Positions 27,949 to 46,434 of a DNA stretch of 64,000 nt are shown here, piece by piece. The notes under the pieces are model-generated. The model did no database searches. It saw only the letters and a list, made by a program, of their open reading frames with translations, and was not told the DNA's origin. The translations under genes and the position numbers were made by a program. Within the stretch, counting starts at the first letter, position 1, and each line of letters starts with the position of its first letter. Origin of the DNA: an uncultured Thalassolituus sp. (lineage in GTDB: Bacteria; Pseudomonadota; Gammaproteobacteria; Pseudomonadales; Oceanobacteraceae); NCBI RefSeq assembly GCF_950066645.1, contig NZ_CATMFB010000006.1, positions 62,001-126,000 of the forward strand, in the 5' to 3' direction.

Positions 27949-28908
27949 ATGCACCAATACCAGACAAGCAGCGCACCATCAGCGAGCACAACAGAAGCTC
28001 ACGACGCCGACCTGCACGCGCACAACCTTACTGACTGGCAACAGGAGTATGACCAACTGTCCGGTGGTCATTTCTACGGACGTATTGATGAAATAGCGCT
28101 CGACGGACTGCAGATCTTCCGGGAGCACACCAGCCAGGCGCTGCGCCAACAGTGCAATGTATGGCCGGATGCCATCTGGCTAGGTATTGCTGCGCAGCCT
28201 GCCGATTGCCGGATAAATGGTCTCGATGTTGGCGGACAACAGATTATGTGCCGTCCGGGTGCCTGCGATTTTGAACTCGTGACACCCGACAACTTTGATA
28301 TATACGGCCTTGTGATCCGTACGGATGCATTATTGAGCGCGGCGGAAAACGAAGAGCTGGATCTGCGTGGTCTCAGCCTCCACGAGCACCCACGCTTAAA
28401 CATTCCGGAAGAGACGATGGCACAGGTGCGACGTCTTCTCGCCAATCTGGTCAACCCCGATACGCCTGGGCTGCACCAGCGACTGCAGCGCCATCTGATT
28501 CTGTCCACACTGCTGGATCTGCTTAAGCAGGAAACTCCCGCGCGCAGACCCGCCACGAGCTATGCACACCGAAAAGCGGTGGTTGATAAGGTTAAGGCAT
28601 GGATGGAAATTAATCAGGATGCTCCGGTAAGCATGACGGAACTGTGTGAACTCACACACGTCAGCCGCCGCACACTGCAGTACAGCTTCGAAAGCATTCT
28701 GGGTATCAGCCCATTAAAGTTTCTGCGTACGGCCAGGCTGAATCAGGTACGCAGAGCATTAAGTCACCCAGAAAACCATGGCCGCCCGGTCTCTTCCATC
28801 GCTGCCGACTGGGGCTTCTGGCATCCGGGACAGTTTGGGCAGGACTATAAAAAGCTGTTTGGCGAAATGCCGTCGGAGACGGTGTCTCGTGGGGAATTGA
28901 TTTTTTAA
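27949..28908 (+). CDS. eutR: AraC-family activator, EutR-like
   Basis: 319 residues. The C-terminal 100 residues carry two helix-turn-helix units of the AraC family (VSMTELCELTHVSRRTLQYSFESILGISPLKFLR, then SSIAADWGFWHPGQFGQDYKKLFGEMPSE). The N-terminal 200 residues form a sensor domain with ILSTLLDLL near its end. Position divergent from eutB, and the similarity of the HTH part to EutR and related regulators, point to ethanolamine-dependent activation of eutBC-eat. GGGAG lies upstream of the ATG. Confidence 0.85.
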   Translation: MHQYQTSSAPSASTTEAHDADLHAHNLTDWQQEYDQLSGGHFYGRIDEIALDGLQIFREHTSQALRQQCNVWPDAIWLGIAAQPADCRINGLDVGGQQIMCRPGACDFELVTPDNFDIYGLVIRTDALLSAAENEELDLRGLSLHEHPRLNIPEETMAQVRRLLANLVNPDTPGLHQRLQRHLILSTLLDLLKQETPARRPATSYAHRKAVVDKVKAWMEINQDAPVSMTELCELTHVSRRTLQYSFESILGISPLKFLRTARLNQVRRALSHPENHGRPVSSIAADWGFWHPGQFGQDYKKLFGEMPSETVSRGELIF

Positions 28909-33152: not shown

Positions 33153-34061
33153 TCACTGCTGTGTAAGAGCGGCCAATGCCGCAGCCGCAGCCGATGTCCG
33201 GTTCTCGACGCCCAGTTTGCGGAAAACCGGTTCGAGATGCTTGTTCACAGTCCGTGGGCTCATCGACAGAATCTGGCCAATCTCCTGATTCGTCTTGCCG
33301 CGGCTCAACCAGAGCAGAACTTCGGCTTCGCGATCCGTCAGACCAAAGCTTTCCTTAAGTATCCGGCGATTCAGCTCTTCATCATCGGGAATCAATCGCA
33401 GCAGAAATTCACCGGGCGCGGGCCGCCCTAAAAAGCGCAGCTGCAGTCGGATATCACCAACCTGCAGCCTTAGGCTGTCATTGCGATCTGGCTGGTTTGT
33501 CAGCCAGTGCAACGCCTGTGTCTGCAGCGCCGAAGCAAGCGAGGTTTCGTCCAGTCCTGCAGTATCCAGCAGAGACAATGAGCAGCGGGTCTGCCACAGA
33601 AGCGCGCCGTCGGTATTACACGCAAAGGCTGGTTGCCCCATTTCTTCCAACGCCATACGGGCACTTTTGGTTTTGCGGGAGTTACTCAGATGAACCTGAA
33701 CACGGGCGAGCATCACTTCGAGATTCACGGGCTTGGTCAGGTAATCGACGCCGCCCAGCTCGAGGCCACGCACCACGTCATCGGGATCACTCAGACCGGT
33801 GAGAAATATCACCGGAATATCTTCCAGATCGGCATCGGCTTTTAATGCACGACAAGCCTCGAAACCGTCCATATTCGGCATCATGGCATCCAGCATAATA
33901 AGATCAGGCGGCATACGACGGGCAATATTCAACGCCTGCGCTCCGTCCATCGCGACCAGTACGGTATAACCTGCGCTAGCCAGGGCTTCGTTCATAAAAG
34001 CCAGTGATTCTGCGGTGTCATCCGCAACGAGTATCAGCCCCTGGCTGTTATGACCGACCAT
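33153..34061 (-). CDS. LuxR-type response regulator, partner of the NCS1-kinase
   Basis: 302 residues from the ATG at 34061. The receiver domain (about 5-125) has the acidic pair ADD and phospho-acceptor Asp58 (LIMLDAMMPNMDG). The middle 100 residues resemble a degenerate PAS fold. The LuxR helix-turn-helix (GLTDREAEVLLWLSRGKTNQ..EIGQILSMSPRTVNKHLEPVF) ends the protein. It overlaps the 3' end of the kinase gene by 14 bases, so the two are coupled. It probably binds the palindrome in the divergent promoter region. Confidence 0.92.
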   Translation of the reverse strand: MVGHNSQGLILVADDTAESLAFMNEALASAGYTVLVAMDGAQALNIARRMPPDLIMLDAMMPNMDGFEACRALKADADLEDIPVIFLTGLSDPDDVVRGLELGGVDYLTKPVNLEVMLARVQVHLSNSRKTKSARMALEEMGQPAFACNTDGALLWQTRCSLSLLDTAGLDETSLASALQTQALHWLTNQPDRNDSLRLQVGDIRLQLRFLGRPAPGEFLLRLIPDDEELNRRILKESFGLTDREAEVLLWLSRGKTNQEIGQILSMSPRTVNKHLEPVFRKLGVENRTSAAAAALAALTQQ

Positions 34062-37000
34062 GATCAACTACCTTTCTGTTCATGGAAATAATATCGTTAA
34101 AGCGGAAACTGCGAAGCAGAGCTTCGGTTTCACGGGCGTATGCTGCGGTATCGTCAGAGGCTTTTAATGTTACCAGTAACTCTTCGATGCCGCTGACATA
34201 TCCAAGCTCCGCCATCTCAATCATCTGGCGGGCGTGAGTCACGCTGACTCCCGGTTCAGTGACTGTCCTGGTCGTTACCTTCTCAGCATCACTTTCGTAG
34301 ACCCAGGTGAGACCCAGAGCGTTTCCGACTTTCTGCAGCAGGACCTGATCACGGATGGGCTTGATCAGGTAATCGTTGTTCAGTCGCTCCTGCGGGTGCT
34401 CGGCAGCCCCCTGCCCTGCGGCCGATAGTTTATCTTCCGCATCGGCAGACACCATAATCACCGGCTTTATAAATCCGGACTCCCGTATTTCACGCAGGAA
34501 TTCCCAGCCGGTCTTGCCGGGCATAGAGATATCTAACAAAACCAGATCAATCTGCGGGTCATGAATAATGCCAGCGGCAGAGAAGGCGTCTGTCGCCTCC
34601 AGTATTCTAAACCCGGCCGGTTGCAGAATTTCACTGACCAGACCGCGGTGGGTGGCATTATCATCAACCACCAGAATCGTCTTCGCAGGCCCTTCGTAAC
34701 CGCTGACTGCACGCTCACTGCGGCTGACAGGCACTGGATTGGACACACTCGATAACATCAGTGACAAGCGGAATGTACTGCCTTTTCCGGGTTCACTTTC
34801 CAGCGATATCTCGCCTCCCATAATATCGGACAGCAACTGGCTGATGGTCAGGCCCAGGCCGGTTCCCGGTTGCTGAACCGTGCCGGGTTTTCTGATCCTT
34901 TCGAAAGGCTGGAAAATACGTTCGCGTTCTTCTTCCGCAATACCGCTGCCGGTGTCCGACACGGTAAATTCGGCGACCTGACTGCGGTAACGCACCTTCA
35001 GGGTCACACTGCCCTGCTGGGTAAATTTCACCGCATTCGACAGCAGGTTAATCAATATCTGACGCAGGTGTTTTTCATCTGTGCGGACAACCTCCGGCAG
35101 ATAGCGCGGTGGCTGATAATTAAATTCGATGCCTTTTTCTGCCGCCTGAAGACGGAACATCTCAGTGAGTTCCTGCAGCAGGCTGTGAATACGGACTTCG
35201 TCGCGACGTACTTCCAGTCTGCCCGCTTCAATCCGGGAAATATCCAGCAGCCCCTCAATCAGATCGGCAAGGTGGTCTCCACTGCGCCGGATCAGCGACA
35301 CTTTGGCGCTCTGGCGACTGTTCAGTGACGCATCTTTTTCGAGCAATTGTGCGTACCCAAGAATCGAATTCAGCGGGCTGCGCAGTTCGTGACTGATGCC
35401 TCCGAGGTAGCGGCTTTTCGCCAGGTTCGCAGCTTCAGCCAGCTCTTTGGCCTCCTGCAGCGCGCGGTCCGTAATTTCGTGGGCGGCGATTTCCCGGGTA
35501 AGCAGTTCGGTCTGGCGGTTTGCCTCGCCGAGCGCCAGCTCCCGGCTTTCGTTCGCCAGCACAAATAACCAGATCAGGACGCCTACGATAATCAGCAACA
35601 ACAGATACACCTGAATTAAGGTGCTGCTGAGCAACAGCCGCCCACTGTCTTCAATCGGAACCTGCATATACACCAGCCAGAAGAGCAGGCCGACCACGCT
35701 GCCAATAATGGTCAGCAGGCCGGTAAACTGCAGCAGCCCCGGGCGCATTCTCTGAGCCAGCGACTGGGGAAGAATGGCCGTCAGCAAGGCTTCAATCTGG
35801 TCACTGAAGCGCGCCCGGTCTTTGCACTGATCATGACAGCGGGATTCCAGCGTACAGCAGAGTGAACAGATATGTCCTTTGTACGCCGGACACGACGCCA
35901 TATCTTCAGCATCAAAGTCATTGTCGCAGACCACACAGCGGTGCTGTGCCTGTACCGGGGTCAGCTGAATCACATCCCGGGCGAGGTAGAAACGCCCTCG
36001 TGTTACCAGTGCAATCACCGGAGAAGTAACAAAGGCCGTCAGCAATGCCAGATACGGCGACAAGGCGCTGGCTTCTGGCCCGGCGACGCCGACATAACTG
36101 AAAATACCGACCAGCGACGCCAGAATCATAGACCCAAAGCCGACCGGGTTAATGTCATACAGGTAGGCCCGCTTAAATTCGATATGGTTCGGACTCAGCC
36201 CCAGCGGCTTATTAATGATCAGGTCGGCCACAAGCGCTCCTACCCAGGCCACGGCAACGTTGGAATAAATCCCGAGGATATGTTCCAGCGACTCGTATAC
36301 CCCGAGCGCCATCAGCATCAGCGCAATCATCACATTGAAAAACAGCCAGACAACCCGGCCCGGGTGGCTGTGGGTCAGACGCGAGAAGAAGTTTGACCAA
36401 GCAATAGAGCCAGCGTAAGCATTGGTCACGTTAATTTTTACCTGACAGAGCACCACGAAGATGCCCGTCAGGGCGAGAATCACCAATGGCGATTCGGTCA
36501 GGTAACTGAACGCAATGATGTAGAGCTGAGTCGGATCAGCAGCATCCGATACCGGCAACCCATGATTCAGCGCCAGCACCGCCAGAAATGATCCCGCAAG
36601 AATTTTCACTACGCCTACAAGAATCCAGCCTGGCCCTCCCATCAGGAGTGCCGCCCACCACCGTCGGCGCGTTCGCTTATCTGGTTCAGGGAGATAACGC
36701 AGAAAGTCGACCTGCTCTCCGATCTGCGCGATCAGTGAAAAAATAACTGCAGAGGCAGCACCAAAATAGTACAGGTTAAATCCACCGCCCTGTTGCGGTG
36801 CAGGATTCTGAATGCCCTCAAACTGCGACCAGTCTCCGAGCATGCTGCCCTCGTGCCAGAGAATAAACACAAAGGGCGCCAGCTGCAGGGCTAGCCAGAG
36901 CGGTTGGGTCCAGAGCTGGAAGCGGGAGATAAGGGTTATCCCGTGCGTCACCAGAGGGATAACCACCACCGCGCTGATAAGGTATCCCGCCCACAGAGGA

Positions 37001-37434
37001 AGCCCGAACAGAATATCCAGTGCGGAGGCCATGATGGCCGATTCCAGTGCAAAAAAGATAAAAGTAAACGAGGCATAGATCAGCGAGGTGACGGTCGATC
37101 CGATGTAACCGAAGCCGGCACCACGGGTAAGCAGGTCAATGTCGACGCCATCCCGGGCGGCGTAGTAGCTGATGGGAATCGCTGTCAGGAAGATAATTGC
37201 AGAAACAACCATCACCGCCAGCACTGTCGCCTGAACACCATAAATCAGGGTAATGGCAGCACCGATCGCTTCGAGTGCAAGAAATGAAATCGCGCCGAGG
37301 GCCGTATTAGAGACCCGCGCAGCAGACCAGCGCCGGGCATCTTTGGCGGTAAAGCGCAGGGCATAATCCTCCAGGGTCTGATTCGCTACCCAGCGGTTAT
37401 AACTGCGTCGGTTTGTCAGCGCCTGTTGCGCCAT
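34048..37434 (-). CDS. Hybrid sensor kinase with NCS1-transporter-like sensor domain
   Basis: 1128 residues. About 1-480 resembles NCS1 (nucleobase/allantoin/hydantoin) transporters: many helices, VSNTALGAISFLALEAIG and AYAGSIAWSNFFSRL. A cysteine cluster follows (C500, C503, C515, C523, C526, C527, C533, C537), then two more helices (about 570-630) and a short coiled coil. The kinase core has H682 in GGISHELRSPLNSILGY, an N-box QILINLLSNAVKF and GTGLGLTISQLL. A receiver follows with Asp968 (LVLLDISMPG), and about 110 further residues end the protein. The architecture parallels CbrA/CrbS-type kinases, which carry an SSS transporter domain. It is divergent from the amide transporter operon, so an amide, urea or related compound is the likely signal. 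Confidence 0.92.
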   Translation of the reverse strand: MAQQALTNRRSYNRWVANQTLEDYALRFTAKDARRWSAARVSNTALGAISFLALEAIGAAITLIYGVQATVLAVMVVSAIIFLTAIPISYYAARDGVDIDLLTRGAGFGYIGSTVTSLIYASFTFIFFALESAIMASALDILFGLPLWAGYLISAVVVIPLVTHGITLISRFQLWTQPLWLALQLAPFVFILWHEGSMLGDWSQFEGIQNPAPQQGGGFNLYYFGAASAVIFSLIAQIGEQVDFLRYLPEPDKRTRRRWWAALLMGGPGWILVGVVKILAGSFLAVLALNHGLPVSDAADPTQLYIIAFSYLTESPLVILALTGIFVVLCQVKINVTNAYAGSIAWSNFFSRLTHSHPGRVVWLFFNVMIALMLMALGVYESLEHILGIYSNVAVAWVGALVADLIINKPLGLSPNHIEFKRAYLYDINPVGFGSMILASLVGIFSYVGVAGPEASALSPYLALLTAFVTSPVIALVTRGRFYLARDVIQLTPVQAQHRCVVCDNDFDAEDMASCPAYKGHICSLCCTLESRCHDQCKDRARFSDQIEALLTAILPQSLAQRMRPGLLQFTGLLTIIGSVVGLLFWLVYMQVPIEDSGRLLLSSTLIQVYLLLLIIVGVLIWLFVLANESRELALGEANRQTELLTREIAAHEITDRALQEAKELAEAANLAKSRYLGGISHELRSPLNSILGYAQLLEKDASLNSRQSAKVSLIRRSGDHLADLIEGLLDISRIEAGRLEVRRDEVRIHSLLQELTEMFRLQAAEKGIEFNYQPPRYLPEVVRTDEKHLRQILINLLSNAVKFTQQGSVTLKVRYRSQVAEFTVSDTGSGIAEEERERIFQPFERIRKPGTVQQPGTGLGLTISQLLSDIMGGEISLESEPGKGSTFRLSLMLSSVSNPVPVSRSERAVSGYEGPAKTILVVDDNATHRGLVSEILQPAGFRILEATDAFSAAGIIHDPQIDLVLLDISMPGKTGWEFLREIRESGFIKPVIMVSADAEDKLSAAGQGAAEHPQERLNNDYLIKPIRDQVLLQKVGNALGLTWVYESDAEKVTTRTVTEPGVSVTHARQMIEMAELGYVSGIEELLVTLKASDDTAAYARETEALLRSFRFNDIISMNRKVVDHGRS

Positions 37435-37531
37435 GGTCTGTCCCCCGTGTGTTGCAACCTCCTGTTTTATTGTTATTCCTGGTTTTTCTCTGACTACTGA
37501 ATCACGTAATCACGTACCGTGCCAAGCGGAC

Positions 37532-37547
37532 TACGTCATTTGACGTA
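37532..37547. promoter_or_regulatory. Inverted repeat, likely response-regulator site in the urt/kinase promoter region
   Basis: TACGTCA-TT-TGACGTA, perfect 7-bp arms, midway between the kinase start (37434, minus) and the transporter start (37643, plus). Two related half-sites CACGTA lie just upstream at 37503-37508 and 37511-37516. The spacing fits a LuxR-type dimer plus auxiliary half-sites. Confidence 0.55.
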
Positions 37548-37642
37548 CCCCGGGAGGGTCATTCGGCGAATGTTACTGATGCCGCCAAACAAGCATTCTG
37601 CAAAGGCATCTGCAATTCCAACCACCGAAATGAGGCCTGACT

Positions 37643-38899
37643 ATGAAGCTACTCAACCTCGAAACAACCGCTCTTGTACGGCGCGGCTTTCTGAAACACC
37701 TGCTCGCAGTACCTGCCGCTCTGGCACTCGCGACCACCAGCCTGCCCACCATGGCAGACAGCGCGAATACTACCGGCCTGGCCGTCACCAAAGATACGGT
37801 GAAAGTCGGTATTCTGCATTCCGTCACCGGCACAATGGCCATCAGTGAAACCGGCTCTGTACAGGCTGAAAAGCTTGCTATCGAACAGATCAACGCCATG
37901 GGCGGTGTACTGGGTCGTAAGATCGAATACATCCAGGAAGACGGTGCCAGTGACTGGCCAACCTTCGCCGAAAAATCGAAAAAACTGCTGGTGAACGACA
38001 AGGTTGCAGCGGTCTTCGGTTGCTGGACGTCCGCTTCCCGTAAAGCCGCTCTGCCCGTGTTCGAGCAGTATAACGGTATGCTCTACTATCCGACCTTCTA
38101 CGAAGGTCTTGAGCAGTCACCTAACGTGATCTACACAGGTCAGGAAGCGACCCAGCAGATTCTCGAAGGTCTCGACTGGGCATCCCGTGAAAAAGGTGCG
38201 AAGAAATTCTACCTGCTCGGCTCCGACTACATCTGGCCACGTACCTCCAACAAAATTGCCCGTAAGCACATCGAGAATAAACTCGGTGCCAAAGTCGTGG
38301 GCGAAGAGTACTACCCGCTGGGTCACACTCAGTTCAACTCGGTGATCAACAAAATCAAGCTGAAGAAGCCTGACGTTGTATTTATCTCAGTGGTGGGCGG
38401 TTCTAACGTTGCTTTCTACAAGCAGCTGAAAGCCGCGGGCATCGACATGGGTAAAGAGAAGCCTCTGTTCCTGACCATCTCAGTGACTGAAGATGAAATT
38501 CTGGGCATTGGTGGTGAAAACATTGAAGGTATCTATGCCTCAATGAAGTACTTCCAGTCTCTGCCGAACGAAAACAACACCGCCTTCGTAAAAGCCTTTA
38601 AAGAGCGCTGGGGCGACGACATCGTGATTGGTGACGTAACTCAGGCAGCGTACCTTGGCCCATGGCTGTGGAAAGCGGCGGTAGAAAAAGCCGGCTCCTT
38701 CGATATCGACAAAGTGCGCGCTGCGTCACCGGGTATCGAGCTGACGACTGCTCCTGAAGGTTATGTCCGCGTTCACGAAAACCACCACCTCTGGTCTAAA
38801 ACCCGCGTTGGCCATGCCCAGCCAGATGGCCAGTACAAAGTGGTTTACGAGAGCTCTGAGCTGATCGAGCCTGATCCATTCCCAGAAGGTTACCAGTAA
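37643..38899 (+). CDS. urtA: Urea/short-chain amide ABC transporter, substrate-binding protein
   Basis: 418 residues. The N-terminal segment has RRGFLKHLLAVPAALALATTSLP, a signal peptide with a twin arginine, so Tat export is possible. The mature part is a Leu/Ile/Val-binding-type periplasmic protein: VGILHSVTGTMAISETGSVQ, VFGCWTSASRKAALPVFE, YPTFYEGLEQSPNVIYTG. These motifs are the UrtA/FmdD subgroup that binds urea or short amides. GAGG lies eight bases before the ATG. It is the first gene of the operon; co-transcribed amidase and formamidase genes favour amides as the main ligand. Confidence 0.93.
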   Translation: MKLLNLETTALVRRGFLKHLLAVPAALALATTSLPTMADSANTTGLAVTKDTVKVGILHSVTGTMAISETGSVQAEKLAIEQINAMGGVLGRKIEYIQEDGASDWPTFAEKSKKLLVNDKVAAVFGCWTSASRKAALPVFEQYNGMLYYPTFYEGLEQSPNVIYTGQEATQQILEGLDWASREKGAKKFYLLGSDYIWPRTSNKIARKHIENKLGAKVVGEEYYPLGHTQFNSVINKIKLKKPDVVFISVVGGSNVAFYKQLKAAGIDMGKEKPLFLTISVTEDEILGIGGENIEGIYASMKYFQSLPNENNTAFVKAFKERWGDDIVIGDVTQAAYLGPWLWKAAVEKAGSFDIDKVRAASPGIELTTAPEGYVRVHENHHLWSKTRVGHAQPDGQYKVVYESSELIEPDPFPEGYQ

Positions 38900-39012
38900 G
38901 ACTCACCGCAATATCTAAGTCTTATCTGATCTGAAAAAGCGGCCCTGTCCCCAGTACTTCAAGTACAGACATCAAAGACAGTGGCCGCCACCAACCACCG
39001 GGGAGAAACATC

Positions 39013-39939
39013 ATGTTTGCCGAATATACCGCGGCCGAGCTGACCTCCATTTTTGCCATGCAGGGTTTTGCCGGTCTTATTCTCTTTTCTGTTTTTGTTC
39101 TGATGGCGCTGGGTCTGGCAATTATTTTTGGCCAGATGGGCGTGATCAATATGGCACACGGCGAATTTATGATTCTCGGTGCTTACACCACTTACCTGAT
39201 TTCCAATCTGTTCGCAGATTATCTGCCTGGAATTTATTCCAGTTACTTTTTTATCGCCATGATCGTGGCCTTCTTTGTCACCGGGGCACTCGGGGCCTTT
39301 GTCGAATGGGCGATGATCCGTCACCTGTATCACCGCCCGCTCGACACTCTGCTCGCCACCTGGGGTCTGAGTCTGATCATGCAGCAGTTTTACCGCACCG
39401 TATTTGGCGCGCGTGAAGTTGGCGTGACACTGCCAGACTGGCTGATGGGCTCAATCGCCGTCACTGACATGGTAGAAATTCCGATCAACGGTCTGTTTGT
39501 GATGGGCCTCACCATCGTCATTACCGTCGGCGTTGCTCTGATGATGCAGAGATCGCACCTGGGTAAGCAGACACGCGCTGTCGTACAGAACCGTCCTATG
39601 GCTGCTGCCGTGGGTATTAATACCGAAAAAGTCGACCGCCTGACCTTCGCATTGGGTTGCGGTATTGCCGGTGTTGCTGGCTCGGCCTTCACTATGATCG
39701 GCTCGACCGGCCCGACTTCCGGCCAGCTCTACATCGTGGATACCTTCCTTGTGGTCGTCTTCGGTGGTGCAGCCAGCCTGCTCGGTACTGTGGCCTCGGC
39801 CTTCACCATTTCTCAGGCTCAATCCACCATGGAGTTCTTCCTCTCTGGTTCGATGGCCAAAGTGCTCACCCTGCTTGTTGTCGTTGGCATTCTGATGCTG
39901 CGTCCACAGGGCCTGTTCACTCTGAAAGTACGTCGCTGA
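39013..39939 (+). CDS. urtB: Urea/amide ABC transporter, permease UrtB
   Basis: 308 residues with about eight membrane helices, in the LivH family. VFVLMALGLAIIFGQMGVINMAHGEFMILGAY is the characteristic first-helix region. A second conserved stretch runs from RAVVQNRPMAAAVGINTEKVDRLTFALGCGIAGVAG to the VVVFGGAASLLGT loop, the EAA-like contact with the ATPases. It forms the pore with UrtC. This length fits the FmdE-like short form; some UrtB proteins carry an extra N-terminal periplasmic part. It lies 113 bases after urtA. Confidence 0.95.
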   Translation: MFAEYTAAELTSIFAMQGFAGLILFSVFVLMALGLAIIFGQMGVINMAHGEFMILGAYTTYLISNLFADYLPGIYSSYFFIAMIVAFFVTGALGAFVEWAMIRHLYHRPLDTLLATWGLSLIMQQFYRTVFGAREVGVTLPDWLMGSIAVTDMVEIPINGLFVMGLTIVITVGVALMMQRSHLGKQTRAVVQNRPMAAAVGINTEKVDRLTFALGCGIAGVAGSAFTMIGSTGPTSGQLYIVDTFLVVVFGGAASLLGTVASAFTISQAQSTMEFFLSGSMAKVLTLLVVVGILMLRPQGLFTLKVRR

Positions 39940-39952
39940 GGGGGTTGAAAAT

Positions 39953-41131
39953 ATGAATAAAGTCGCAGCATTTATCGGCAAAAATCAGTACAGCCACATG
40001 ATTATTCTGGCGCTGTTACTGCTCGTTGTTCTGCCATTATCTCTCGATATTTTCCGCCTCAATTTAGTAGGCAAATATCTCACCTACGCCTTCGTCGCAC
40101 TGGGCCTTGTGCTCTGCTGGGGTTACGGCGGTATTTTAAGTCTCGGCCAGGGCGTGTTCTTTGGTCTGGGCGGTTACTGCATGGCGATGTTCCTCAAGCT
40201 TGAGGCATCGTCTCCTGAAAACACGGCGATTCAGTCAACGCCAGGTATCCCGGACTTTATGGACTGGAACCAGCTGACGGCCCTGCCGTGGTTCTGGGAG
40301 CCCTTCCACAGCTTCACCTTTACTGTGTTCGCTGTGATTCTTGTACCGGCTATTTTCGCCTTCATTATTGCCGTCGCCATGTTTAAACGTCGCGTCGGTG
40401 GTGTGTACTTCGCGATTATCACTCAGGCCGTGGCTGCCATTATGACCATCCTCATTATTGGTCAGCAGGGCTACACCGGTGGTGTGAACGGTATTACCGA
40501 CCTGCGCACTCTGCACGGCTGGGATATCCGTACCGACGACGCAAAATACATTCTCTACTACGTGAATGCCTTGCTGTTGTTCCTGTGCCTGTTCGTGGCG
40601 GCTTTTGTCATCAAGAGCAAACTGGGCCGCTTACTCGTCGCAATGCGCGAACGGGAAGACCGTGTGCGTTTCTCGGGTTACGACGTGTCCGCCTTCAAGA
40701 TCTTTATCTTCTGCCTGGCAGCAGCGATCTCAGCCATCGGTGGCGCCATGTTCACCCTGCAGGTCGGCTTTATGTCACCGTCGTTCGTCGGCATCGTGCC
40801 TTCGATTGAAATGGTGATTTTCTGTGCCCTGGGCGGCCGCCTGTCCATCCTGGGTGCGGTGTACGGCACTCTGCTGGTGAACTACGCAAAAACCAGTTTC
40901 TCCGAAACCTTCCCTGAACTCTGGCTGTTCGCCATGGGTGCACTGTTTATCGGTGTTGTGATGGCCTTCCCGAATGGTCTGGCCGGTATCTACCAGCGTT
41001 ACATGGAGCCATGGCTGCTGAAGCTCAGCAAAAAAGATGAATCACCGTCAGCACCCGCTGTGGGCGCGTCGGAAAAAGCACCAGAAAGCAGCGATGAGCC
41101 AATGACTTCTGAGGAGCGTAAACATGCTTGA
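39953..41131 (+). CDS. urtC: Urea/amide ABC transporter, permease UrtC
   Basis: 392 residues, LivM-family permease with about eight to ten membrane helices. Recognisable parts are ALGLVLCWGYGGILSLGQGVFFGLGGYCMAM and the loop MREREDRVRFSGYDVSAFKIFIFCLAAAISAIGGAMF. It carries an insertion of about 30 residues near residue 90 and a hydrophilic C-terminal tail of about 40 residues (SPSAPAVGASEKAPESSDEP). It pairs with UrtB. The gene starts 13 bases after urtB and ends overlapping urtD by eight bases. Confidence 0.95.
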   Translation: MNKVAAFIGKNQYSHMIILALLLLVVLPLSLDIFRLNLVGKYLTYAFVALGLVLCWGYGGILSLGQGVFFGLGGYCMAMFLKLEASSPENTAIQSTPGIPDFMDWNQLTALPWFWEPFHSFTFTVFAVILVPAIFAFIIAVAMFKRRVGGVYFAIITQAVAAIMTILIIGQQGYTGGVNGITDLRTLHGWDIRTDDAKYILYYVNALLLFLCLFVAAFVIKSKLGRLLVAMREREDRVRFSGYDVSAFKIFIFCLAAAISAIGGAMFTLQVGFMSPSFVGIVPSIEMVIFCALGGRLSILGAVYGTLLVNYAKTSFSETFPELWLFAMGALFIGVVMAFPNGLAGIYQRYMEPWLLKLSKKDESPSAPAVGASEKAPESSDEPMTSEERKHA

Positions 41132-41888
41132 GTCAACCAAATCCATCCCAGCGAAAGACTTTGTATTGAGCGTTGAAGGCCTGACCGTCTCCTTCGATGG
41201 CTTCAAAGCAGTGAATGATTTATCGCTTTACGTAGAAGAACAGGAAATCCGCGTGATTATCGGCCCTAACGGGGCCGGTAAAACCACGGTACTCGATCTG
41301 ATCTGCGGCCGCACCAAGGCCACCGAAGGCTCAATTAAATTTAAGGGCAAAGAACTGACCAAGCTGAACGAGCACCAGATAGTGCACGCCGGTGTGGGTC
41401 GTAAATTTCAGAACCCGTCGATTTATGAAGACCTGACGGTGTTCGAGAATCTGGAGCTGTCTTACCCACGTGGGCGCAATGTCTGGGGCGCCCTCTTCTT
41501 CCGCCGCGATGCCGAAGTCGTCGCCAAAGTAGAAGAAATTGCCGACATGATTTTCCTCGGCGACAAACTCGATATGTCAGCCGATCTGCTGTCGCACGGC
41601 CAGAAGCAGTGGTTAGAAATCGGCATGCTGCTGATTCAGGATCCGGAGCTGCTGATGCTGGATGAACCGGTGGCGGGCATGTCAGTCTCCGAGCGCAAAC
41701 AGACTGCCGAACTCCTGCAGCGCATCACCAAAGACCGCTCAGTACTGGTGATTGAACACGATATGCAGTTCGTCGCAGACATCGCCGATCGGGTCACTGT
41801 ACTGCACCAGGGCAAGGTCCTCTCTGAGGGCTCGATGGACCGGGTGCAGTCTGATCCGAAAGTTATCGAAGTTTATCTGGGTCACTGA
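41124..41888 (+). CDS. urtD: Urea/amide ABC transporter, ATP-binding protein UrtD
   Basis: 254 residues, LivG-type ABC ATPase. Walker A is GPNGAGKTT near 50-58, the signature segment is LSHGQKQWLEIGMLL, and Walker B is LLMLDEPVAGM. The signature starts LSHGQ, a variant of LSGGQ normal for the UrtD group. GAGGAG lies upstream of the ATG, and the start overlaps urtC. It energises import together with UrtE. Confidence 0.95.
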   Translation: MLESTKSIPAKDFVLSVEGLTVSFDGFKAVNDLSLYVEEQEIRVIIGPNGAGKTTVLDLICGRTKATEGSIKFKGKELTKLNEHQIVHAGVGRKFQNPSIYEDLTVFENLELSYPRGRNVWGALFFRRDAEVVAKVEEIADMIFLGDKLDMSADLLSHGQKQWLEIGMLLIQDPELLMLDEPVAGMSVSERKQTAELLQRITKDRSVLVIEHDMQFVADIADRVTVLHQGKVLSEGSMDRVQSDPKVIEVYLGH

Positions 41889-41899
41889 GGAAAGCCGCC

Positions 41900-42589
41900 A
41901 TGATGCAATTAACCGATTACTCCGTTGCCTACGGTCAGAGCACCATCATTGATGGCATGAACCTGACGCTGAACAAGAACGAGATCATCGCCATCCTGGG
42001 TCGTAACGGCATGGGTAAAACCACGCTGATGAAGTCTCTGATCGGCATGATTCCCAGCCAGGGCGGCAAGGTAACTCTCGAAGATACCGAAATTACGCCG
42101 ATGAAAAGCTACCAGCGCGTCGGGGCAGGTCTGGGTTTTGTACCTCAGGGGCGGATGATCTTTTCCACCATGACGGTCGAAGAAAATATCGAAACCGGCC
42201 TCACCAGTACCGGTAAAAAAGAGATCCCGTCGGATCTTTACAGCATCTTCCCGGTGCTGGATGAAATGAAACACCGCCGCGGTGGCAACCTCTCCGGCGG
42301 TCAGCAACAACAGCTGGCCATTGCCCGTGCGCTGGCCAGTAACCCCAGTGTACTGCTGCTGGATGAACCCACCGAAGGTATCCAGCCAAGCATCATTAAA
42401 GATATGGCGCGCACGCTGAAACAGATCCGTACCCAGCGTGGGCTGTCGATTCTGGTATCTGAGCAGGTGCTGAGTTTTGCGCTTGATGTTGCTGACCGGA
42501 TTCTGGTGATTGAGAAAGGAAAAATTGTACTGGATGTACCTGTGGAAGAAGCCGACCACGAAACCATTTCCAAGTACTTATCGGTTTAA
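41900..42589 (+). CDS. urtE: Urea/amide ABC transporter, ATP-binding protein UrtE
   Basis: 229 residues, LivF-type ABC ATPase. Walker A is [16 protein letters not shown], the signature is [15 protein letters not shown], and Walker B is [13 protein letters not shown], the last being typical of UrtE. The gene begins with two Met codons after GAGGAAAG and lies 11 bases after urtD. It closes the five-gene transporter set. Confidence 0.95.
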
Positions 42590-42621
42590 TTTTTTCTTAT
42601 CTGAAAACTGGAGAGTTTTTT

Positions 42622-43668
42622 ATGCGTCATGGTGATATTTCAAGCAGCCCCGATACCGTCGGTGTCGCCGTCGTTAACTACAAAATGCCACGCCTGCACA
42701 CAAAAGAAGATGTGCTGGAAAACGCCGGAAAAATAGCCGACATGATCAAAGGTATGAAGGTCGGCCTGCCAGGGCTTGATCTGGTCGTATTCCCGGAATA
42801 CAGCACCATGGGCATCATGTACGACGAAGAGGAAATGTACGCGACCGCAACGACGATTCCTGGCCCAGAGACCGATATTTTCGCTGCAGCCTGCAAAGAA
42901 GCCGACACCTGGGGCATCTTTTCATTAACCGGCGAACAACATGAAGAACACCCGAATAAAGCACCCTACAACACCCTCGTTCTGATCAATAACCAGGGAG
43001 AAATTGTTCAGAAATACCGTAAGTGTATCCCCTGGTGTCCGATCGAAGGTTGGTATCCCGGCGACCGCACGTACGTCAGCGAGGGCCCTAAAGGCCTGAA
43101 AATCAGCCTCATCATCTGTGACGACGGTAACTATCCGGAAATCTGGCGCGACTGCGCGATGCGCGGCGCCGAACTGATTGTACGCTGTCAGGGCTATATG
43201 TACCCGGCCAAAGAACAGCAGATCATGATGGCCAAGTGCATGGCATGGGCCAACAACTGCTATGTCGCTGTTGCGAACGCCACTGGCTTTGACGGTGTTT
43301 ATTCCTACTTTGGTCACTCAGCACTGGTCGGCTTTGATGGCCGTACGTTAGGCGAATGCGGCGAAGAAGATATGGGCGTGCAGTACGCGCAGTTGTCGGT
43401 CTCTCAGATCCGCGATGCCCGTGCCAATGACCAGTCTCAGAACCACTTATTCAAACTCCTGCATCGCGGCTACAGCGGTGTTCACGCCTCCGGCGACGGC
43501 GATAAAGGCATTGCCGACTGCCCGTTCGAGTTCTACCGCACCTGGGTCACTGACGCAGAAAAAGCACAGGCCGATGTGGAAGCCATGACACGCACCACGG
43601 TCGGTGTTGCCGATTGCCCGGTCGGTAATCTCCCTGTGGCAGAACGCAGCATGGAGGCCGGCGAGTAA
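42622..43668 (+). CDS. amiE: Aliphatic amidase
   Basis: 348 residues, nearly collinear with the Pseudomonas aliphatic amidase AmiE. It hydrolyses acetamide, propionamide and similar amides to acid and ammonia in the cytosol. The nitrilase-fold triad is Glu59 (FPEYSTMG), Lys134 (KYRKCIPWC) and Cys166 ([11 protein letters not shown]), at the same positions as in the Pseudomonas enzyme. The N-terminus MRHGDISSS and the ending with VGVADCPVG also match. Formamidase AmiF is a close relative, but these N-terminal and middle features favour AmiE. It is 33 bases after urtE and upstream of amiB. Confidence 0.95.
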
Positions 43669-43682
43669 TCGCCGGAGCCAGC

Positions 43683-44768
43683 ATGGTCTTCGCTAACGAA
43701 CGTTTACGGGAACAGACACGAAGCGCTAAGCCGTCAAGAGTTGCGCCGTCCCGGTTTGCGTTTAATCCGTCGGACGTCGCCACCAGCCTGCGGGCGCACA
43801 TCCGTGGTCAGGACGAGGTGATCAACCGGCTGGAAGATCAGCTGAATGTTATTGCCAGTGGTCTGTATGACGAGCGCAGACCGCTTCTGTCCGCACTGTT
43901 TATTGGCGCAACAGGCACCGGAAAAACAGAGACAGTACGTCAGCTCGCTAAGGCGATTCACGGGCGCACTGATGCTTTCTGCCGGATTGATATGAACACT
44001 CTGTCGCAGGCTCACTACAGCGCCGCCATCACTGGCGCTCCTCCGGGCTATGTCGGCAGTAAAGAAAATCTCAGTCTGTTTGACGATGACCTGCTGTGCG
44101 GCACATCGACGCGCCCCGGCATTGTGCTTTTTGACGAAATTGAAAAAGCCGATACCTCAGTGGTTCGCGCCCTGATGAACGTGCTTGATAACGGCGTACT
44201 TAAACTTGCGTCGGGACAGAAGTCTCTGTCATTTCACAACACCCTGGTGTTTATGACCAGCAACGTTGGCAGCCGTCAGGCCGACCGCCTCGGCTGGCTG
44301 GAACAGCTTCCCGGAATGAATCGCCCTGCGGTTTATAAACGTGCCCTACTGCGCCATTTTGATACCGAATTTATTAACCGTATTGGCATTGTCGAATACT
44401 TTTCGGCGCTCCCGTCTACGGCGTTACCAGGTCTCGTTGAGCAGCTCGAAAGCGGGCTGAATGAACGACTGAAAAAGCAGCAGCTGTCTATTGCCATGGA
44501 TAGCCATGCGCGCCTTTTCATTGCCCAGCACGCGGATACCAAACGTTATGGCGCGCGGGCTTTAGAGCGGGCTTTCCGCGATCACGTTATTACAGGAGTG
44601 GCGCGTTTTATTCAGACAGCGACCACCGCCACCACGCATCTTTGCCTGAAGATCAGCGCCAATCATCAGAGCCTGATTTTCCGGCCGGAATATTCTGCCG
44701 ACGACGCAGAACACACACTGACTACCCCTACCAGCCTTTCGGCGACCCAAGGAGAAAACCATGACTGA
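43683..44768 (+). CDS. amiB: AAA+ ATPase of the ClpA/ClpB type, AmiB-like
   Basis: 361 residues: a single AAA+ module of the Clp C-terminal type. Walker A is GATGTGKT (75-82), the pore-loop-like segment is GAPPGYVGSKE (118-128), Walker B is VLFDEIEKA (148-156), and sensor regions follow (MTSNVGS near 205, then the R-finger area FINRIG). The end YGARALERAFRDHV belongs to the D2-small domain. It lacks a Clp N-domain and first AAA module. In Pseudomonas, amiB follows amiE in the amidase operon and its role is not settled. Start has GGAG seven bases upstream; its end overlaps fmdA by eight bases. Confidence 0.9.
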   Translation: MVFANERLREQTRSAKPSRVAPSRFAFNPSDVATSLRAHIRGQDEVINRLEDQLNVIASGLYDERRPLLSALFIGATGTGKTETVRQLAKAIHGRTDAFCRIDMNTLSQAHYSAAITGAPPGYVGSKENLSLFDDDLLCGTSTRPGIVLFDEIEKADTSVVRALMNVLDNGVLKLASGQKSLSFHNTLVFMTSNVGSRQADRLGWLEQLPGMNRPAVYKRALLRHFDTEFINRIGIVEYFSALPSTALPGLVEQLESGLNERLKKQQLSIAMDSHARLFIAQHADTKRYGARALERAFRDHVITGVARFIQTATTATTHLCLKISANHQSLIFRPEYSADDAEHTLTTPTSLSATQGENHD

Positions 44769-45993
44769 TACCATCATTAAAATTGATCTCAGTAAATCCG
44801 CCTATGACAACGATCAGGTGCACAACCGCTGGCATCCGGACATCCCTATGGTTGCGACAGTGAAGCCCGGCGATGACTTTATCGTTGAATGTTACGACTG
44901 GACCGGTGGCCAGATCGAAAATAACGATGATGCCTCTGACGTACGTGATGTTGACCTCAGCCAGGTGCACTTTCTGTCTGGCCCGATTGCCGTAGAAGGC
45001 GCAGAACCCGGAGATCTGCTGGAAGTCGATATTCTTGATATTGGCGCCTTCGCCGAACAGCAGTGGGGCTTTAACGGCTTTTTCTCGAAGAAAAACGGTG
45101 GCGGCTTCCTGACTGACCGCTTCCCGGAAGCGCAGAAATCCATCTGGGATTTCAATGGCATGATGACCAGCTCACGTCATGTACCGGGCGTTGAATTCGC
45201 CGGTATTCTGCACCCGGGCCTGATTGGCTGTCTGCCAGATAAGAAAATGCTGGATATGTGGAACACCCGCGAAAAAGCCTTAGTCGATACCGACCCTGAG
45301 CGCGTACCTGAGCTGGCGACACTCCCTTACGCTGAAACCGCGCATATGGGTCGTATGTCCGGCGATGAGAAAATGCAGGCAGCGGCAGAAGCCGCCCGTA
45401 CTGTGCCGCCACGTGAGCACGGCGGTAACTGTGATATTAAAGACCTGACGCGCGGCGCAAAAGTCTATTTCCCGGTGTACGTTGATGGTGCCGGCCTGTC
45501 AGTGGGTGACCTTCACTTCAGTCAGGGCGACGGCGAAATTACCTTCTGCGGCGCGATCGAAATGGCTGGCTGGATTCATATGCGCGTGAATCTGATTAAA
45601 GACGGCATGGCGAAATACCAGGTGAAAAACCCGATCTTCAAGCCAAGTAAAATGGTTCCGAAGTATGACGACTACCTGATTTTTGAAGGTATTTCTGTCG
45701 ACGAAGATGGCAAGCAGCACTATCTGGATACCAGTGTGGCTTACCGTCAGGCCTGTCATAACGCCATTAATTACCTGACGCAGTTTGGTTACAGCGAAGC
45801 ACAGGGTTACGCCATTATTGGATGCGCACCAGTGCAGGGGCACATCAGTGGCGTGGTCGATATTCCAAACTCCTGTGCCACCCTCTGGCTGCCGACGGAC
45901 ATCTTTAAATTTGATGTGCAGCTCAATCCTGAAGGGCCTAAGAAACACCTCGACGGCAGCGTCGATATTCCTAAAGCACCTGACCTCGATTAA
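44761..45993 (+). CDS. fmdA: Formamidase / acetamidase
   Basis: 410 residues, FmdA/AmdA family, unrelated in fold to AmiE. It hydrolyses formamide (and some other short amides) to ammonia and the acid. Conserved parts are NRWHPDIPMVATVKPGDDF, the ECYDWTGGQI segment, LLEVDILDIGAF, GIMHPG-like GILHPGLIGCLP, GGNCDIKDLTRGAKVYFPVYV, LHFSQGDGEITFCGAIEM and IPNSCATLWLPTDIFKFD. Two unrelated amidases in one operon should widen the substrate range. The start overlaps amiB and has a strong GGAG. Confidence 0.95.
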   Translation: MTDTIIKIDLSKSAYDNDQVHNRWHPDIPMVATVKPGDDFIVECYDWTGGQIENNDDASDVRDVDLSQVHFLSGPIAVEGAEPGDLLEVDILDIGAFAEQQWGFNGFFSKKNGGGFLTDRFPEAQKSIWDFNGMMTSSRHVPGVEFAGILHPGLIGCLPDKKMLDMWNTREKALVDTDPERVPELATLPYAETAHMGRMSGDEKMQAAAEAARTVPPREHGGNCDIKDLTRGAKVYFPVYVDGAGLSVGDLHFSQGDGEITFCGAIEMAGWIHMRVNLIKDGMAKYQVKNPIFKPSKMVPKYDDYLIFEGISVDEDGKQHYLDTSVAYRQACHNAINYLTQFGYSEAQGYAIIGCAPVQGHISGVVDIPNSCATLWLPTDIFKFDVQLNPEGPKKHLDGSVDIPKAPDLD

Positions 45994-46004
45994 GGAGCAG
46001 TATC

Positions 46005-46385
46005 ATGCCTCTCTATGATTACAAATGTCCTGACCATGGTGTTTTTCAGGAACTGGCTTCGATGGAGCACCATGACAAACCCGCGTTCTGCCCGCAATGC
46101 AAGACTCTGTCTGCGCGGGTCATCGTGTTGCCACCCGAAGTTGCCAACATGATCAGAGAGCGGCGTGAAGCCATGGAAGCTAATGAAAAGGCGAGTCACT
46201 CACCTGAGGTGATGACCGCCAGTGAATTCCACGAACGCGAAAAGGAAAAGCAGGAGCGACGTGCTCATAAGCACGGCAGTTCATGCGGTTGCGGAAGCCA
46301 GAAAAAGCGTCAGAGTAATCTGATGTATACGGCGGAAGGCAATAAGATGTTTCCATCAATGCGGCCGTGGATGATCAGTCACTGA
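46005..46385 (+). CDS. fmdB: FmdB-type zinc-ribbon protein
   Basis: 126 residues. It opens MPLYDYKCPDHG and has a second pair CPQC near 33-36, a CxxH/CxxC-type zinc ribbon. A charged, likely helical middle (about 60-90) follows, then a Cys/Ser-rich SSCGCGS near 105. The FmdB family was named for a putative regulatory gene beside fmdA in Methylophilus; its biochemical role is uncertain. AGGAG lies eight bases upstream. It ends the nine-gene run just before a strong terminator. Confidence 0.88.
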   Translation: MPLYDYKCPDHGVFQELASMEHHDKPAFCPQCKTLSARVIVLPPEVANMIRERREAMEANEKASHSPEVMTASEFHEREKEKQERRAHKHGSSCGCGSQKKRQSNLMYTAEGNKMFPSMRPWMISH

Positions 46386-46407
46386 GTCCCATCAGTGTGT
46401 TGAGATT

Positions 46408-46434
46408 GCCCCGGCAGACGCCGGGGCCTTTTTT
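46408..46434 (+). terminator. Terminator of the amide operon
   Basis: Arms GCCCCGGC and GCCGGGGC with a four-base loop AGAC, followed by six T. It is 23 bases after the fmdB stop, and it faces the convergent deaD 3' end. Confidence 0.95.

Follow-up and report, generated by a model that had tools for sequence, protein, structure and literature searches.

A predicted NCS1-type sensor kinase and its LuxR-type partner regulator linked to formamidase and urease operons in Pseudomonadota

Transporter-like membrane domains fused to histidine kinases are known from the SLC5/STAC kinases, as in CrbS/CrbR, CbrA/CbrB and RpuS/RpuR (PMC9100948, PMC5715377; published work is cited here and below from excerpts of the articles). 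Among amide gene clusters, the fmd genes of Methylophilus are reported to have both formamide and urea as inducers and ammonia as a repressor (PMC10781810), a urt-like importer of Bradyrhizobium beside FmdA and AmiE was inferred with SIMBAL to carry amides (PMC3098086), and in Ectopseudomonas guguanensis a hybrid kinase and a LuxR regulator beside a second urtABCDE, with fmdA at an adjacent locus number, are annotated without comment in the excerpt (PMC13296017). A related arrangement was analyzed in 64,000 nucleotides of an uncultured Thalassolituus sp. (RefSeq assembly GCF_950066645.1, contig NZ_CATMFB010000006.1, positions 62,001 to 126,000; this whole stretch is called the window), where a response regulator and a hybrid kinase with an NCS1-like membrane domain are encoded on the minus strand, opposite urtABCDE-amiE-amiB-fmdA-fmdB on the plus strand (37643–46385). 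With a probability of roughly 0.6, the two proteins form a two-component system dedicated to urea and short-chain amides, a reading based on its genomic linkage, co-occurrence with FmdA, exchange of partner enzymes, shared sensor residues and a shared cis element. Among the papers listed by searches of the open-access literature, which leaves most subscription journals outside its coverage, there was no study of an NCS1-type kinase or of this system.

Linkage was surveyed in 398 evenly drawn Pseudomonadota genomes from 213 genera. A profile of the sensor domain matched 53 genomes in 38 genera; 52 genomes carried the carrier-kinase fusion and the remaining match, G288, had a truncated form only. 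Fifty-seven kinase places, mostly about 20 kb each and including neither G288 nor the window's own place, were fetched, searched with the window proteins, canonical Urt proteins and urease, and classed by fixed identity limits. After L177 (no kinase) and L134 and L174 (contig ends) were set aside, 54 loci were readable, and all 54 held amide or urea genes: FmdA in 37, urease in 14 and a urea-type importer only in 3. An importer was also present in 35 of the 37 FmdA loci, and the 14 urease loci occurred with or without one; a separate importer lay near the kinase in nearly every locus, the exceptions being L172, L173 and four urease loci. In a second set, consisting of the best 80 of 428 relatives in another collection, 75 kinase loci were linked to amide or urea genes. 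The initial annotation had named conservation of the kinase pair mainly without the operon as the result that would speak against its proposal, and both sets gave the opposite.

FmdA (NF045496) was found in 40 of the 398 genomes, 39 of which also had the kinase (hypergeometric probability 5e-41, shared descent ignored). The two genes were at most 13 kb apart in 38 of these 39; in G111 they were on different contigs, the kinase near a contig end. Within the window's genus the kinase was present in all nine genomes examined, and in genus g214 of the same family all six genomes read had it about 9–16 kb from urease. The proposed linkage of kinase and operon is thus upheld, whereas an exclusive tie to amide operons is not, since relatives of the kinase adjoin urease and the canonical urea importer. 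For that reason a signal class comprising urea and short amides is more likely than a signal confined to an amide.

Exchange of the partner enzyme was followed on a tree of the sensor domain built from 64 dereplicated rows of 138 (short L174 and rows more than 86% identical were removed) by a quick method, so that branch support is provisional. Kinase alignments left out L019 (976 aa), and the structure alignment and the tree left out the L061 kinase (masked N bases). On this tree the partner switches between formamidase and urease at least four times, with two of the switches forced by starred branches; L161 was labeled urease although fmdA is 13 kb away, and it was left out of the group comparison described below. 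Five genomes in the draw had two kinases. Four of them (G158, G225, G246 and G379) had one kinase per operon kind, with sensor parts 61–63% identical, and in two genomes, G360 and G143 (L208), both enzymes were in one cluster.

For the group comparison, 43 formamidase-linked and 18 urease-linked sensors were aligned over 479 membrane-domain positions. In the 61 kinases together, conservation reached 98% or more at 113 of the 479 positions. The majority residue differed between the two groups at a single position, 344 (I or L), with more than 70% in each. Position 344 was the sole candidate for a residue separating the groups and was rejected as uninformative for a specificity switch. The difference between the groups at one of 479 positions only suggests that formamidase- and urease-linked sensors share one ligand class, urea and short amides, for both operon kinds.

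The regulator and kinase genes share a 20-base overlap, and the regulator gene adjoins the kinase gene in nearly all loci read. Their features in the window, with residues (res) numbered in the proteins, are:

33153–34067, minus strand: response regulator with REC (res 12–123) and C-terminal LuxR/GerE HTH (res 243–295), from Pfam
34048–37434, minus strand: hybrid sensor histidine kinase of 1128 aa, with NCS1-type membrane domain, 8-Cys module, further helices, HisKA, HATPase_c and REC
35977–37413, minus strand: predicted NCS1-type (CodB/Mhp1-like) membrane domain, kinase res 8–486, from Foldseek fold search and from PF02133 via L177
35824–35937, minus strand: 8-cysteine module, kinase res 500–537 (C500, C503, C515, C523, C526, C527, C533, C537)
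35569–35742, minus strand: helices between Cys module and HisKA, kinase res 565–622, from the structure model
34327–35421, minus strand: kinase output part with HisKA (res 672–738), HATPase_c (res 785–894) and REC (res 920–1036), from Pfam

For kinase residues 1–650, neither Pfam (E ≤ 0.05) nor the PDB sequences (E ≤ 10) gave a match. PF02133, the family of NCS1 transporters, gave no match to the window kinase at E up to 10 and, for 37 aligned relatives, was not among the 25 families listed out of 30, so that at most one of the 37 could match it; NCS1 sequences in the PDB were matched neither by the window protein nor by the 37-row profile. Residues 1–668 were judged from an AlphaFold model made with a 37-row kinase alignment (mean pLDDT 78.5, pTM 0.75). 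The top five Foldseek matches were CodB and Mhp1, with E from 2.8e-8 to 1.9e-6 and TM scores (by target length, as below) of 0.66–0.77; the CodB matches were chain B (E 2.8e-8, TM 0.73) and chain A (E 4.2e-7, TM 0.77). SSS-type and other LeuT-fold carriers ranked below NCS1, the best SSS-type match being a sialic acid symporter (E 1.2e-5, TM 0.63), so that the fold test of the kinase model did not return an SLC5 (SSS) membrane domain; an Amt domain was found neither by Pfam scans nor by the fold search. L177, a kinase-free relative of 497 aa found with the sensor profile, aligned along the whole domain (27% identity, E 2e-32) and passed PF02133 with 36.4 bits against a cut-off of 23.5. By predicted fold and this relative, the membrane domain is of NCS1 type, and the label given to it in the initial annotation was correct, by this route and not by a direct Pfam match.

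Between membrane domain and kinase core, where no Pfam domain was found in the window kinase, lies a cysteine module of the pattern CxxC-x11-C-x7-CxxCC-x5-C-x3-C. No row lacked any of the eight cysteines, neither among the 82 of the first set (82 of 82) nor once the phylum draw was added (137 of 137), and the module may bind metal. Fusion of the module to other sensors was not found at E ≤ 1e-6, its profile matching those 53 of the 398 genomes that the sensor profile had matched. Residues 565–622 are likely two membrane helices, their placement in the membrane being judged by eye from hydrophobicity. The HisKA-HATPase core with a LuxR-type partner regulator was present by Pfam. Kinases beside FmdA were shorter in L172 and L173 (885 and 879 aa), where a separate REC-HisKA-HATPase protein stands next to the kinase in place of the LuxR regulator; the L173 kinase has HisKA and HATPase_c and no receiver. 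As side observations, about 119 residues between REC and HTH of the window regulator had no Pfam assignment, and the truncated relative in G288 (L188:7857–9713), 618 aa long, lacks the carrier domain and shows changes in most of the Cys pattern; it keeps kinase and receiver and has a receiver-HTH type partner gene alongside.

The cis element lies upstream of urtA:

37532–37547, no strand assigned: palindrome TACGTCATTTGACGTA, lying 95 bp ahead of the urtA ATG and proposed as the target of the response regulator

No other exact TACGYN6RCGTA site occurs in the window; the consensus across loci is TACGYNNNNNNRCGTA. Sites were counted in 55 dereplicated loci of 63, the 8 without readable urtA upstream being left out; these loci share descent and are not independent. 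An exact palindrome was found in 35 of the 55 (26 of 41 formamidase-linked and 9 of 14 urease-linked) against 0.04% of 2750 shuffles, and a palindrome within one mismatch in 47 of the 55 against 2.4% of 2750 shuffles. TACGYN6RCGTA was mostly 70–180 bp before urtA in both operon kinds. Before the kinase gene, an exact site was found in 61 of 136 loci, a near variant in 26 and none in 49, and in L032 (Rhizobium), where other genes lie between kinase and importer, the palindrome stood before urtA and was absent before the kinase. Background tiles contained an exact palindrome in 100 of 5565 cases, true sites included. A sigma-70 promoter was looked for near 37532 and none was found. The palindrome has the form of a LuxR-type site and would be bound by the partner regulator.

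In the proposed mechanism, the NCS1-type domain would bind its ligand, urea or a short amide, within the membrane, and the resulting change would be relayed via the 8-cysteine module and the further helices to the kinase core. Phosphate would then pass from the kinase's receiver to the LuxR-type regulator, which would bind TACGYN6RCGTA before urtA and activate import by UrtABCDE and hydrolysis to ammonium by AmiE and FmdA, or by urease in other bacteria. Three parts of this scheme are put forward as probable: activation by the regulator, ligand binding by the NCS1 domain, and urea or short amides as the ligand. NCS1 carriers have hydantoin and cytosine among their ligands, which bear ureide or amide groups, and this was counted in favor of the scheme, as was the reported induction of Methylophilus fmd by both formamide and urea (PMC10781810). 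A more far-reaching form, which we regard as speculative, holds that an NCS1 carrier has been turned into a direct urea and short-amide receptor read out via the cysteines as a metal or redox module, so that nickel- or metal-dependent hydrolases are induced only when both substrate and metal or redox state allow.

The initial annotation stated that the window holds no urease; this genome has one on another contig (C1:373741). Exact TACGTN6ACGTA occurs three times in the genome: at urtA, 83 bp before ureD and at C3:80725–80740. Control of urease in trans was considered as a general rule and rejected: of the 8 other congeners, 7 were read (G399 has no urease), and the palindrome upstream of ureD was exact in 0 of these 7. 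G401, with a one-mismatch palindrome before ureD, was the sole congener to come so close. The palindrome before ureD is a lead for this strain only.

Several observations weigh against a dedicated urea and amide sensor. In the second set, 5 of 80 loci had no partner within reach (L037, L045, L046, L071 and L074; L071 is at a contig start), in G091, the fifth genome with two kinases, each of them adjoins FmdA, and the palindrome has at least two mismatches in 8 of 55 loci. Nor does the palindrome generally accompany ureases that lie apart from the kinase: upstream of urease it was exact in only 5 of 35 regions of kinase-bearing genomes (from 31 of the 49 kinase-bearing genomes with urease, one region, L208, being the kinase's own cluster), and in kinase-free genomes in 2 of 45 regions (45 of 96 genomes). 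Such stray exact palindromes lay inside the urtA coding sequence in 4 of the 5 kinase-bearing and 1 of the 2 kinase-free cases. In addition, the transporter part of CbrA, which has the SLC5 fold, was reported not to be essential for signal perception (PMC9100948), and by that precedent sensing may not lie with the NCS1 domain.

A further point leads to the most probable of the alternatives. Formamidase and urease both release ammonium, and this common product would explain the partner swap equally well; the kinase would then sense the shared product or nitrogen status and switch on uptake and hydrolysis when ammonium is low. Ammonia represses Methylophilus fmd (PMC10781810), and a sensor kinase for ammonium with an Amt-type domain has been described (PMC5764959). 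The fold of the present kinase is NCS1, however, and not Amt, and neither a strict tie to two enzymes nor, in four genomes, a doubling with one kinase per operon would be anticipated of a sensor for nitrogen in general. Ammonium sensing is accordingly considered rather unlikely.

It is more doubtful still that the NCS1 part is a working carrier (a transceptor), with the kinase reading its flux or merely tethered to it and sensing taking place in the cytoplasm. CbrA, which reportedly transports histidine and does not need its transporter part for perception (PMC9100948, PMC13022988), offers a model for this, and sensing in the cytoplasm could fall to the 8-Cys module or to REC, but a second carrier seems superfluous where a separate high-affinity importer is encoded near the kinase in nearly every locus. 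That ligand-loaded UrtA signals to the kinase, as AmiC works through AmiR in the regulation of Pseudomonas amidase, is very improbable: UrtA is an AmiC relative (1pea, E 1.2e-46; PDB sequence search) whose gene adjoins that of the kinase in most loci, but four urease-side loci (L166, L170, L175 and L176) had no Urt gene in the fetched stretch, although one could lie elsewhere in the genome, and the model of residues 1–668 has no large soluble domain except the Cys module.

The genes and signals controlled in the window under the preferred reading, a two-component system for urea and short amides, are:

37643–38899, plus strand: urtA, substrate-binding protein (TIGR03407; PDB relatives include urea-binding proteins and AmiC)
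38939–38988, plus strand: stem-loop in the urtA-urtB gap (fold z -2.21 for 38900–39012, the 113-base gap)
39013–39939, plus strand: urtB, permease (TIGR03409, 404.5 against cut-off 250.3)
39953–41131, plus strand: urtC, permease (TIGR03408, 445.6 against cut-off 296.2)
41124–41888, plus strand: urtD, ATPase (ABC_tran and BCA_ABC_TP_C, Pfam scan only)
41900–42589, plus strand: urtE, ATPase (TIGR03410, 318.8 against cut-off 285.8)
42622–43668, plus strand: amiE, aliphatic amidase (NF009802, 707.2 against cut-off 427; solved aliphatic amidase 2uxy)
43683–44768, plus strand: amiB, AAA ATPase of ClpB-D2 type (AAA_2 and ClpB_D2-small, Pfam)
44761–45993, plus strand: fmdA, formamidase (NF045496 equivalog, 762.2 bits against cut-off 500; solved formamidase 2wkn)
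46005–46385, plus strand: fmdB, zinc-ribbon protein (FmdB/RPWMISH; NF053663, 135.1 against cut-off 120)
46408–46434, plus strand: intrinsic terminator (8 G-C pairs and a T run)

All eleven genes of the initial annotation were found where it had placed them, its 8-base overlaps of urtC/urtD and amiB/fmdA and its terminator were borne out, and the gene run is transcript-like, in support of the single transcript it had claimed. Its suggestion that the importer serves short amides also gained support. All five UrtABCDE subunits were assigned to families (A, B, C and E over NCBIfam cut-offs, with UrtA at 550.8 against 492.75, and UrtD by Pfam), and the window's Urt subunits were about 36–56% identical to the canonical, mostly urease-type importers beside the Rhizobiales and similar kinases. 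AmiB being a ClpB-D2-like AAA ATPase, the operon's two amidases are AmiE and FmdA. A stem-loop after the binding-protein gene is a common arrangement, and the one between urtA and urtB may set an excess of binding protein. In four related loci (L005, which is that of Thalassolituus maritimus DSM 24913, L009, L011 and L013), AmiB was 60–69% and the kinase and regulator 64–70% identical to those of the window, and the operon neighbors were better kept, with UrtE at 84–90% and FmdA and AmiE at 95–96%.

Elsewhere in the window, a membrane desaturase-fold protein (FA_desaturase, PF00487; 29208–31475, minus strand) adjoins a 2Fe-2S/NAD-binding reductase, and an AraC-type regulator is encoded close by (27949–28908). 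The desaturase-fold protein is perhaps an alkane or xylene monooxygenase, and the three together are possibly a hydrocarbon-oxidation unit.

Formamidase and urea operons are widespread nitrogen routes. If the proposed reading holds, these kinases would define a class of receptors for urea and short amides and add another carrier fold that has been made a kinase sensor, their coupling module would stand where others have STAC, and the cis element would allow regulons to be read from genomes. The two natural partner sets, formamidase and urease, make ligand range and specificity directly testable.

Pseudomonas amiEBCRS has AmiE plus the AmiB ATPase. The locus shares amiE and amiB with that cluster, although the AmiC-like protein is here the importer's UrtA, and no pair of AmiC sensor and AmiR antiterminator was found among the genes of 33153–46434. 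Methylophilus fmdCABDEF likewise combines formamidase with a high-affinity importer of short amides and urea and is inducible by formamide and urea; its regulator is only putative and it includes a porin gene, fmdC, where the present locus has the kinase-regulator pair, amiE and amiB (PMC10781810). The Bradyrhizobium case likewise has an importer plus two amidases, with no kinase mentioned in the excerpt (PMC3098086). Among transporter-kinase fusions, the Kuenenia Amt-type ammonium sensor kinase is likewise related to nitrogen but has the Amt fold and not NCS1 (PMC5764959). The NCS1 transporters themselves (CodB and Mhp1; PF02133) have the same predicted fold, with a sequence tie via the kinase-free L177, whereas here the domain is fused to a kinase and has no direct Pfam match. 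Closest in design are the SLC5/STAC kinases: CrbS and RpuS are hybrid kinases with a LuxR-type partner regulator, as here, and an inverted repeat precedes CrbR target genes, comparable to the palindrome before urtA (PMC9100948, PMC5715377). The membrane domain is, however, of NCS1 and not SLC5 type, the 8-Cys module occupies the position of STAC (PMC9100948, PMC13022988), and the linked genes encode formamidase or urease, where those kinases accompany genes for acetate, histidine or pyruvate. By analogy, the design would work like CrbS/CrbR with another carrier fold, and the system is not a member of that group because it lacks the SLC5 feature; it belongs to a known kind, the transporter-like sensor kinases, as a variant with a predicted NCS1 fold, the Cys module and formamidase and urease partners.

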